From Methylococcales bacterium (lineage in GTDB: Bacteria; Pseudomonadota; Gammaproteobacteria; Methylococcales; Methylomonadaceae): a DNA stretch of 33,416 nucleotides. The notes beneath the pieces were generated by a model. It worked only from the letters and a program-made list of their open reading frames with translations, had not been told where the DNA came from and did not search any database. Positions 5,706-30,087 of the stretch are shown piece by piece (positions within the stretch are counted from its first letter, which is position 1; each line of letters opens with the position of its first letter). The stretch spans positions 1-33,416 of the forward strand of contig QVQF01000105.1 of NCBI GenBank assembly GCA_003584895.1. The letters run 5' to 3'. Made by a program: the position numbers and the translations under genes.

Positions 5706-7724
5706 ATGTCAGATAGAAAAATTCTTGTTACTAGCGCTTTACCTTACGCAAACGGCCCTATACATTTAGGCCATTTAGTTGAATATATTCAAACCGATAT
5801 CTGGGTTCGCTTCCAAAAACAACGTGGCAATAGCTGTTATTTCGTTTGCGCAGATGACACCCACGGCACACCGATTATGCTTAAAGCTGATCGAGAAGGT
5901 ATTACTCCAGAACAACTGATCGCGCAAGTTGGCAAAGAGCATTTAGCTGATTTTACTGAATTTGGTGTGGCTTTTGATAATTATCACAGCACCCATTCCG
6001 AAGAAAACCGCAACTATTCATCGCTGATCTATAAGCGATTACGGGATGCTGGGCACATTAGTTCACGAACGATTACCCAAGCATTCGATCCCGTTAAGAA
6101 TATGTTTTTGTCTGACCGCTTTATCAAAGGTGATTGCCCGAAATGTGGTGCAATCGATCAATATGGCGATGGTTGTGAAACCTGTGGTACCACTTACTCA
6201 CCTAGCGAACTGAAAAATGCTGTATCTGCTATTTCAGGGGCCAAGCCTATTTCAAAAGACTCGGTTCATTATTTTTTCGATTTAGCTAACTTTACCGAAA
6301 TGCTTAATGCTTGGACTAAAGCGGGTCACTTACAGTCTGAAGTACGCAATAAATTAGCTGAATGGTTAGAAGGCGGCTTACAGCAATGGGATATTTCTCG
6401 CGACGCACCTTACTTTGGCTTTGAAATTCCTGACGCCCCTGGAAAATATTTTTATGTTTGGTTGGATGCACCTATTGGCTATATGGCCAGCTTTAAAAAT
6501 CTATGTGACAAACAAGGTTTAGATTTTGATGAGTTTTGGGCTAAAGACAGCACCGCAGAGTTATATCATTTTATCGGTAAAGATATTATCTATTTCCATG
6601 CCTTATTCTGGCCAGCAATGCTAAGTGGCGCTGACTTTAGAACGCCGAGTGCAATTTACGCTCACGGATTTTTAACCGTCAATGGTGAAAAAATGTCTAA
6701 ATCTCGCGGAACCTTTATTACCGCAAGAACTTATCTAGATCATCTCAATCCCGAATATTTACGTTATTACTTTGCCGCTAAACTTAGCGCTGGAGTTGAT
6801 GACATAGACCTTAATTTTGATGATTTTAGTCAACGTGTTAATTCTGATTTAGTTGGAAAAGTCGTCAATATCGCTAGTCGTTGCAGTGGATTTATCGCTA
6901 AACGCTTTGATAATCGCTTATCTGAGCGCTGTTCAGAGCCCTTATTATTTCAAGAGTTTATTGACGCTAATGAACAAATTGCAACCTTTTATGAAACTCG
7001 AGAGTTTGGTAAAGCCATGCGCGAAATTATGGCGCTAGCTGATAAAGCGAATCAATATATTGATGAAAAAAAGCCTTGGTTGATTGCCAAGCAAGAAGGT
7101 AATGAAGCTGAATTACACGAAGTTTGCTCTATGGGACTTAATTTGTTTGGCTTATTGGCTACTTTTTTAAAACCTGTCATTCCTGTCTTAGCGCAGCAAG
7201 CTGAGCAGTTTTTAAACATTCCTACTCAATCGTGGCCCGTCGCTATAAAACCTTTGCTAAACCATAGCATTAATGACTTCAAACCTTTAATGACCCGTGT
7301 CGAAGCAGACAAAATTGCAGCCATTGTTGAGGCATCTAAAGAAAATCTTGAAAAAACAGTTGCACCTTTAAAGACCCTAGTATTTGAACCTATCGCAGAT
7401 ACTATCGAGTTTGATGATTTTGCCAAATTGGATTTACGTATCGCTAAAATTATCAAAGCTGAACATATCGAAGGTTCGGACAAACTATTACAGTTGACCG
7501 TGGATATTGGCGATGAAACCCGCAACATATTAGCAGGTATTAAATCCGCATATGCACCTGAAGACTTAGAAGGCAAATTAACCTTAGTAATTGCTAATCT
7601 TGCACCTAGAAAAATGCGCTTTGGCTGTTCTGAAGGTATGGTCTTAGCCGCAGGCCCAGGGGGAAAAGACATTTGGATACTAAGCCCTGAAGCCGGGGCT
7701 GTCGCAGGATTACGCGTAAAATAA
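5706..7724 (+). CDS. metG: Methionyl-tRNA synthetase
   Basis: Charges tRNA-Met and tRNA-fMet. At 672 residues it is close to E. coli MetRS (677). Visible are the class I HIGH-type motif GPIHLGHL (about 15-22), the zinc knuckle [18 protein letters not shown], the KMSKS loop ([10 protein letters not shown]), and a C-terminal tRNA-binding OB-fold starting around [14 protein letters not shown] that makes the enzyme a dimer. The start [17 protein letters not shown] is standard. Nothing looks degraded. The 5' flank of 178 bases is shared with mrp. Confidence 0.97.
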
Positions 7725-28662: not shown

Positions 28663-29352
28663 CTACCCCCCCACCGAAACACTAATCACATCACTCCACT
28701 GCCCTACCAGTTCGTCGTGCAAGCGATAAATGGCTTTGTATTTCCATAAAGCACTGGCACCCGCTGCCGGCAATGGCGAGGTGTCGGTGGTGTTGGGCTC
28801 GGTGTTGATAGTGAGTAAGACAAACTCATGACCGTCGCCTCTATCTACCCAGATTTCTATGGCGCTGGCTTGGCCTTTGCTCCAGACGATAATCGGATGA
28901 CCTGCTTGATTTTGTATCGTTAATATCGGTTTCCAAGTGCTGGTATCAAGCACTTGAAAGCTGCCAATTAGCCATAAATCTTGGCCGATGGCGGTGGTGT
29001 AGTTTTTGTGAGTTTTGATATGTGCCGCTAAGGCAGCGAGTCTAGCAATAACACCGGGTCTGACAGCAGGCGGAACAGGGGTGGCCAATGTTAAGGCGAT
29101 CGGCCAATCTGCCGTGCCGCTACCACCATCCCTAAGCACATTCTTATAAGCCGTCCAGTGTTGACTATAAGCCAATACATCGGTTTGCGCATGTAAAGTG
29201 TAGCGAAAAGCATCAGCATCCGCTTTAAGTGCGACAAGATCAACAGCACTGACATCTAACGCAGCCGCATAACGGGGCAAAGCAGATGAAAAATGATCTA
29301 GCAAGTCGGCTTTGCCGCTGTCGTTAGTAGGCATAAAATAGTTAGTCGTCAT
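28663..29352 (-). CDS. Orphan hypothetical protein, possibly with C-terminal Fn3-like domain
   Basis: A 229-residue protein with no signal peptide or membrane helix. Residues about 1-125 are Ala/Leu-rich and probably helical (LLDHFSSALPRYAAALDVSAVDLVALKADADAF, given here in part as a helix-forming block). The C-terminal half looks beta-rich, with IEIWVDRGDGHEFVLL, a short TDTSPLPAAG turn, and a closing LWKYKAIYRLHDELVGQWSDVISVSVGG that recalls fibronectin type III strands. The ATG at 29350-29352 has AAGGAG upstream; an in-frame extension to 29403 has none. It is GC-richer than its surroundings (33 of 60 bases at 29041-29100, against 22 of 60 at 10381-10440), which suggests transfer. I recognise no named family. 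Confidence 0.72.
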   Translation of the reverse strand: MTTNYFMPTNDSGKADLLDHFSSALPRYAAALDVSAVDLVALKADADAFRYTLHAQTDVLAYSQHWTAYKNVLRDGGSGTADWPIALTLATPVPPAVRPGVIARLAALAAHIKTHKNYTTAIGQDLWLIGSFQVLDTSTWKPILTIQNQAGHPIIVWSKGQASAIEIWVDRGDGHEFVLLTINTEPNTTDTSPLPAAGASALWKYKAIYRLHDELVGQWSDVISVSVGG

Positions 29353-29427
29353 AGTCTTTAAGCTCCTTATGGTTAATTTACAAAGGTGGTGTTGAGTATC
29401 CAACGGGTGTAGCGGTAATGATTATTA

Positions 29428-29762
29428 GGCGTCTAGCAATGACAGCCAGACAACTCTGCGTGACAGAATGTTATCTGGCTAGCGTAGCCAGTCGTCTGGC
29501 TGTCATTGCTAGTTATATTTTATGATGGCTAGTTGCCTGTCCGTGCTAGCCAGATGACTAGCTACCATTGCTAGGCGTCTGTGTGCCATTGCTAGTCATA
29601 TTTAATGCTTGCTAGTTGTCTGTCTGTATTAGCCAGATGACTAGCAATCGCTGCTAGGCGTCTAGCTGTGCCTGACCGATGCCTAGCAATGGTAGCCAGA
29701 CAACTGGCAAGCATAGCTAAGCGTTACTTAATGATGACCTTACACCTAGCTAGAGTGGCTAG
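29428..29762. repeat. CTAG-rich palindromic repeat cluster
   Basis: Sixteen CTAG tetramers occur in 330 bases, where about one is expected by chance. A 12-base word AGCCAGAYRACT occurs at 29444, 29548, 29631 and 29694 and inverted at 29490, with two further degenerate inverted copies at 29531 and 29614. CTAGCAATG-NN-AGCCAGACAACT at 29433-29455 recurs at 29683-29705, and its near-perfect complement is at 29490-29512. Two tandem units of 83 bases start at 29528 and 29611. It lies upstream of the orphan gene. No open reading frame runs through it, and spacing is too irregular for CRISPR. Confidence 0.9.
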
Positions 29763-30087
29763 CAGCCGTTAAAACAAGGCGACACAGGGCAAAATGAAAG
29801 CCAGAGGTCTTAGCTAAAAAAAATAGGGGATGGGTAGTATCGTAATCACAACGGCGATAAACATCAAGTTAAAGTGTAATAAATATTAGCTCCCCAATAC
29901 AGGTCACGACCTTTCCTACCTTCGCACCCTATTAGACAAAAAAACCATGACTTAAAATGGAGGATAAGCTAACTAATAACCGACAATCTGTTGCTATCTT
30001 TTGTTAAAAACAGAATGTCTGGACAAAATACTACAAAACGGTAAAATTATCGGCTGTTATAATCTATATGCTGACTTAAATACCTAA
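29763..30087. other. Gene-free stretch between repeat cluster and aroQ
   Basis: About 325 bases with no convincing gene. Only very short reading frames occur. An extended -10 element (TGTTATAAT, 30055-30063) lies 25 bases before the aroQ start and is the likely promoter of the aroQ-accB-accC transcript; no good -35 accompanies it. Confidence 0.5.
30055..30063 (+). promoter_or_regulatory. Extended -10 promoter of aroQ-accBC
   Basis: TGT-TATAAT: perfect -10 with the TG extension, no recognisable -35 at the usual distance. The predicted start is within 20 bases of the aroQ ATG, so the leader is very short. Confidence 0.55.

Follow-up and report, generated by a model that had tools for sequence, protein, structure and literature searches.

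Arrays of 21-base units lie upstream of most examined genes of an unnamed family in Methylococcales and other bacteria

What is a dense cluster of CTAG words that stands directly upstream of a gene in Methylococcales DNA, and is it tied to that gene? The window analyzed here, 33,416 nucleotides long, makes up the complete contig C20 in a draft genome that totals 2.6 Mb over 235 contigs. Its patch at 29428-29762 has 16 copies of CTAG in 335 bases (at 29433-29759), while the best other stretch of equal length within the window has 5. With a rate of 2.66 per kb outside the cluster, the Poisson probability of 16 or more copies is about 3e-15. The cluster is real, and its internal repeats were found as the original prediction described them. 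The 12-base word AGCCAGAYRACT is present in both orientations in five copies, four exact on the plus strand (29444, 29548, 29631 and 29694) and one exact on the minus strand (29490). A 23-base element at 29433-29455 has an inverted copy at 29490-29512 (96% complementary) and a direct copy at 29683-29705 (91%), and an 83-base tandem repeat occupies 29493-29672 in 2.1 copies. The general rarity of CTAG in bacterial DNA, also put forward originally, is untrue of this window, where 104 copies were found against 97 expected from trinucleotides. CTAG is about as common here as expected, so its rarity is no argument. As the key feature of the patch CTAG was rejected, being common in the window DNA and not enriched before most genes of the family described below.

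Read on the minus strand, which is the strand of the neighboring gene, the patch forms a register of 14 recognized 21-base units, from 29753 down to 29420. There are 13 steps between unit starts, eleven of 21 bases and two of 41. The 83-base repeat equals four of these units minus one base, and many units contain a dyad of the type GCYAGNCRNCTRGC, as read by eye. The patch is not in essence a CTAG element; its 21-base register had been missed. The array ends 67 bases before the ATG of the gene. In the leader between them (29353-29419, minus strand), an AAGGAG read directly at about 29361-29367 resembles a Shine-Dalgarno sequence and may act as one. Upstream of the array lies a promoter-like block, CTTGATGTTTATCGCCGTTGTGATTACGAT (29839-29868, minus strand), which is recognizable in the orthologous loci L006 and L007 in an alignment by eye and might be the promoter.

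The neighboring gene (28663-29352, minus strand) encodes a protein of 229 amino acids. It had been called an orphan of unusual composition. The composition is indeed unusual (GC 49.6%, against 40.0% for the window), but the gene is no orphan, since a scan of genome contigs found relatives at 73 loci, some of them partial, above all in Methylococcales. No family match was found in two further genomes of the order, G055 and G039. The window's own genome has 14 family matches, and the complete relative G018 has 9 match rows, corresponding to about 7 genes (two are split). Other family loci were in Thiodictyon, Gallionellales, Nitrosomonadales, Zoogloea, Verrucomicrobia and Flavobacteriaceae records; a Limisphaerales-type genome, G063, has 12 match rows. 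The family is rare in Bacteroidota (2 of 148 genomes searched), and scans of plasmid, phage and viral collections, at the settings used, brought up no relatives.

The product had no match in Pfam and, for the four family members submitted, none in PADLOC. NCBIfam (E 0.066) and PHROGs (E 0.045-0.051) gave only chance-level rows, and a sequence profile of the family, compared with solved structures, gave nothing below E 0.04. The protein, RNA and defense libraries searched yielded no credible family. In the predicted structure (mean pLDDT 85.7, pTM 0.55), the N-terminal half consists of long helices and the C-terminal half is an FN3-like beta sandwich. Candidate structural relatives were rejected, as these were only generic FN3 domains in single-domain matches with target TM-scores of about 0.5-0.6, and likewise in the viral library.

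A conserved operon partner was looked for by eye among the next genes, from the starts of their translations, and none was seen. There were single cases. At L059, on a Candidatus Methylumidiphilus contig, a TIR-like protein (5711-6430) starts 21 bases after the family gene and matches PDC-S35, TIR effector and PycTIR in PADLOC; other genes on this contig appear conjugation-related by eye. At L163 and L167 (G062, Verrucomicrobia type), the same 183-aa companion frame (MPFDPTKPAAN...) starts 14 and 19 bases after the family genes. Proteins that look PEP-CTERM-like by eye adjoin family genes at L007 (6074-6688) and L020 (1352-3366).

The tie between array and gene was measured in two ways. In a fixed-segment test, matches at lag 21 were counted in upstream 420-nt segments (z > 3) for the 53 loci with enough upstream sequence. 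The signal was present upstream in 43 of 53, downstream in 0 of 47, within the gene in 4 of 53 and far upstream in 2 of 45. A sliding test (z > 4.5 in a 300-base window within 900 bases) found an array upstream in 48 of the same 53 loci and downstream in 0 of 48, apart from one downstream signal at lag 42. The five misses were L008, L019, L020, L029 (z 4.1) and L063. For L019 and L020, the array is more than 1 kb upstream, and in L020 it precedes a three-gene run with the family gene last.

A second set consisted of 30 loci, covering 30 of the 45 match rows listed for seven genomes. Nine of them were left out as already known (L142=L010, L144=L045, L145=L052, L147=L067, L148=L066, L149=L053, L150=L070, L151=L075 and L159=L065), leaving 21 new loci from six genomes. 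By the sliding test, lag 21 gave an upstream array in 17 of the 21, a count that rises to 19 if lag 42 is accepted as well, and 1 of 21 was positive downstream; the two misses, L154 and L160, are pieces of one divergent split gene. The window's own genome has an adjacent array at 11 of 12 tested loci, the window included, and none at L089. This count leaves out L091, where the gene starts near the contig end, and is 11 of 13 with L091 counted. The downstream values of L092 and L093 are invalid because the contigs end there. A Bacteroidota genome has a clear array at its family gene L192, about 294 kb into the contig.

Such periodicity is rare elsewhere in what was scanned. Of the 5987 windows over the loci scanned, 165 had a passing score (z 5) at lag 21, compared with 11, 7, 4 and 20 at the control lags 15, 18, 24 and 27; a few of these 165 lie in coiled-coil-like coding sequence (L059) or in a stretch of N (L047). 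G018 was sampled in 20 evenly spaced stretches with a total of 400 kb. One window out of 6580 passed there, and no array was seen at the split family match G018:3231111-3231716 inside this sample. By these tests, the family members without an array are L008, L029, L063, L089, L154/L160 and this split match. Array and gene go together across three phyla, with the array 5′ of the gene. The original prediction had proposed a tie to the gene family, and the tie is stronger and wider than proposed.

For unit spacing and wording, we used 33 non-redundant arrays (42 minus 9 near-duplicates). The unit steps were 346 of 21 bases, 8 of 20, 3 of 19 and 2 of 22, a share that is conditional because the arrays were selected by periodicity. 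They hold roughly 10-23 units. The words themselves differ: GCTAG types in the window, GAGCGCTC types in Methylobacter and Loclat loci, TGTCACATGACA types in Zoogloea, TAGGCTAGCCTA in one Flavobacteriaceae genome and others in Verrucomicrobia. The AGCCAGAYRACT/CTAG words are common to the orthologues of this locus and some further arrays, with weak matches in L059 by DNA similarity. A search for them in relatives matched in 6 of 61 related genomes, all 6 of the same genus. As a conserved feature these words fail, since the 21-base period recurs before most other family genes in different words. A common unit fits the 33 arrays, 22 of them gammaproteobacterial, better (0.510) than it fits permuted arrays (0.382, sd 0.008). 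A unit word shared across phyla was rejected, as the unit lists by phylum show none to the eye.

Units come and go by whole steps. Upstream regions of orthologues were compared in 13 pairs, over 650 bases or up to the end of a shorter contig. Six pairs were gap-free, and the gaps in the others included three of 21 bases, two of 42 and one of 43, along with nine single bases and gaps of 2, 6, 8, 10 and 17. On the aroQ side, the window, L006 and L007 share flanks of about 89% identity, while the window array can be aligned to L006 only by opening two 21-base gaps, and to L007 only piecewise. In brief, the period of 21 is fixed, the wording differs between arrays and phyla, and the units vary by whole steps.

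This turnover would be expected if the array were a largely neutral satellite, remade by amplification in 21-bp steps, with the gene only supplying the place. Two further observations fit such a satellite. One is the lack of a common word to be seen between phyla. The other is a site where the array has been wholly lost: compared with L108 (2343-2530), the array is missing in L113 and L114 exactly between two CTAG words, with the element flanks kept, so arrays can contract to nothing. A neutral satellite does not explain why the arrays are tied to one gene family in three phyla and are nearly absent elsewhere in what was scanned, nor why they keep their position 5′ of the gene and a register with few indels despite diverged units. 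We consider it unlikely.

Since 21 bases are seven codons, the array could also encode heptad repeats in a leader peptide. In 18 of 42 arrays, L059 among them, one sense frame runs through the 252-base core without a stop. Open frames are, however, no longer than in column-permuted arrays (mean P 0.52), and the 3-base purine/pyrimidine harmonic is below chance (z -2.5; 33 arrays). Neither the window array nor the Flavobacteriaceae array L066 can be read through in any sense frame, and steps of 20 break the frame. Coding heptad repeats were rejected on these grounds, and the leader peptide is nearly refuted.

Over 42 arrays, the mean fold z was -3.45 for the sense and -3.84 for the antisense strand, with the sense strand more negative in 16 of the 42; a fold z below -3 (folding without pseudoknots) was reached by 22 of 42 arrays in sense and 24 of 42 in antisense. 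L010, L027, L039, L045 and L062 showed no folding excess on either strand. The extensive folding as RNA or single-stranded DNA claimed for the window array holds for that array, but it does not extend to all arrays and favors neither strand. Dyad mispairs were counted in those arrays, 13 of 33, that have half or more of their dyad positions paired. There were 183 G-T and 221 A-C, against 183.4 and 220.6 expected from composition, and hence no G-U excess. Rfam gave only two tRNAs in the window at gathering score, and below threshold, at the array, only microRNA families (best 26.9 bits against 72.9). RNA structure as a universal constraint is not supported: folding is equal on both strands and absent in several arrays, and there is no G-U bias.

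These results bear on an RNA-level pair of the type III toxin-antitoxin kind, in which array RNA would be cut into repeats that restrain the protein of the adjacent gene. The order of promoter, tandem repeats and protein gene is the same as in ToxIN, CptIN and TenpIN, with the repeats directly upstream of the gene. The array sequence is private to its gene or close relatives, and the family is multicopy and patchy. Type III antitoxin repeats, too, differ greatly in sequence and length between loci, according to the available part of PMC4627078. That part of the paper gives repeat units of 36 and 45 nt in ToxI and CptI examples, against 21 here, and the present arrays have many more copies and no RNA-strand signal, with sense folding not preferred (16/42), no G-U excess and several arrays lacking a folding excess. 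Where the ToxN, CptN and TenpN families are RNases, the protein here has predicted helices plus an FN3-like fold, without a Pfam match, a PADLOC match for the four members submitted or a credible NCBIfam match. A pair of this kind appears rather unlikely.

An array on the path of transcription would nevertheless be compatible with roles at the RNA level. A sigma70-like motif was found upstream of the array, at -654 to -697 before the ATG, in nine related Methylococcales loci, three of them near-identical, the pattern having been read from seven of the nine. It was found nowhere else in the loci searched (960 kb, both strands counted) or in the G018 sample. The Zoogloea-group loci have a common block at the distal edge of the array (by eye). 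A promoter before the array would have it transcribed, which leaves room for RNA roles, and the array probably lies in a transcribed leader. Between the array and the start codon, at about -120 to -30, a conserved block GGCTAGATGC...AGCAGGANGC was seen by eye in L012, L013, L015, L022, L026, L029 and L033; the same leaders have a possible hairpin, TGCAGA...TCTGCA.

For the arrays as DNA, the tests gave a partial signal. The 10.5-base purine/pyrimidine harmonic is above chance over the 33 arrays (z 6.6). The 3.5-base harmonic is as strong overall (z 6.5), and we have no explanation for it. By group, the 10.5-base harmonic is strong in the gammaproteobacterial arrays (z 8.2), where the units have common ancestry. 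It is weak in the 15 Verrucomicrobia arrays (3.3, on a level with the first harmonic; L075 is included a second time as L151), and the 7 beta arrays lack it. As this signal is mainly gammaproteobacterial, we take it as support and not as proof. In 19 of 33 arrays the dyads surpassed every one of the 30 column-shuffled controls, and in 14 they did not. Curvature predicted with a wedge model is strong in some arrays (L047, L052). Intrinsic curvature as a universal constraint was rejected, the window array being straighter than all 30 column-permuted controls. In sum, the tests argue against coding, against selection on an RNA strand and against DNA curvature as a general property.

The reading we prefer, with a probability of about 0.42, is that the window cluster is a phased double-stranded DNA array that acts in cis on its gene. 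Array and gene form a two-part genetic unit, an array of 21-base units followed by one gene of the unnamed 229-aa family, in which the array would work as double-stranded DNA. Units 21 bp apart are separated by two helical turns, which places the sites on one face of the helix. On the dyad units, copies of a dimeric protein could bind next to one another; this might be the family protein, a partner or a protein of the host. The nucleoprotein stretch formed between promoter and gene would control expression of the array's own gene. Gain and loss of units would let the sequence drift quickly while selection holds the spacing. Against a DNA array of this kind, the family protein (pI 5.84) has no recognized DNA-binding domain, some members have no array, and the existence of solo arrays shows that the gene is not needed for an array to persist.

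These solo arrays were found at several places. A close relative of the window array lies at C83:1474-2010, on a 10.2-kb contig without a family gene, where its neighbors are, by eye, a metallo-beta-lactamase-like gene and a long repetitive gene. L108 and L110 have further solo arrays, as perhaps has L106, with an array near the contig end. They could be relics of a small non-autonomous element whose cassette is array plus gene, the array serving as its mobility or recombination sites. Paralogues within a genome do align as array plus gene (L013/L033, L012/L015, L017/L022 and L024/L034), from -859, -765, -277 or -196 to 4-84 bases past the stop codon, and the similarity between the window and L006 stops 3 bases past the gene match. 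Against a mobile cassette, no terminal inverted repeat plus target duplication turned up, nor did relatives on plasmids, phages and viral contigs at the settings used. The paralogue pairs are about 74-90% identical and are not recent copies. Mobile insertion with a clean empty site was rejected, as the best candidate, L113/L114, keeps the element flanks and looks like array contraction rather than a pre-insertion site. The mobility originally suggested stands at most in part, by the solo arrays and the array-plus-gene paralogues, and we regard the cassette as quite improbable.

The original prediction had left the cluster without a class, and no known system like the array was found in the searches. 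No precedent for 21-bp arrays before such a family appeared in the literature searched, as represented by titles and abstract openings with few subscription papers, nor one for the gene-array unit in the available parts of PMC4853749, PMC4627078, PMC4679880 and PMC3733652. Of the known systems compared, none could be matched on every defining feature. REP/BIME and RAYT systems likewise have short palindromes in intergenic DNA, old and widespread. REPs, as the available text of PMC3733652 describes them, carry GTAG or CGTC tags, measure 20-40 bp and mostly follow coding regions; the arrays here are instead a tandem 21-bp register upstream of one gene family, in agreement with the original exclusion of REP-BIME. 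The TAACTGA heptamers of Beggiatoaceae are also direct repeats before start codons and also occur in a few Bacteroidetes, but they are one fixed 7-base word, in 169 sets in one genome and before many genes (PMC4679880, in the part available), whereas the family arrays have no fixed word and precede one gene family. The exclusion of CRISPR was likewise borne out: the array units are contiguous 21-mers without spacers, and none of six window proteins compared with Pfam is a Cas protein.

Plasmid iterons and partition sites (centromere-like) are arrays in which repeats of some 17-22 bp precede a gene in helical phase. The family arrays resemble them in having tandem sites about two helical turns apart upstream of a gene, and may share their dependence on helical phase. 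They differ in lying on genome contigs, in many copies per genome and with private wording per copy; the gene product is not Rep or Par in any library searched, and there was no plasmid match.

A narrower form of the DNA reading, which we find rather doubtful, is a self-addressed nucleoprotein system, in which the family protein or a partner would assemble on the private array before its own gene. If this were true, each subunit pair would take two helical turns, the solo arrays would be further landing sites, about a dozen address codes would coexist per genome and evolve by unit turnover, and a ruler of two DNA turns would be conserved across phyla.

Over Pseudomonadota, Verrucomicrobiota and Bacteroidota, the family combines a fixed array period with free wording before most of the copies examined, an unusual constraint. 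It raises the question of what reads a 21-bp ruler without a fixed word. For a phased DNA array, re-spacing of the units is predicted to abolish function, while re-wording within the array may not. The arrays also offer access to an unnamed family that has as many as 14 matches in a genome.

Short tandem runs of another period were seen beside some of these loci. The window has a heptamer run, AGCCTTT x 6.1, at the contig end (33374-33416), and other short heptamer runs are TAAACAA x 5.4 in L079 (2184-2221) and AAGGCTA/AGGGCTA in L108 (about 2090-2130).
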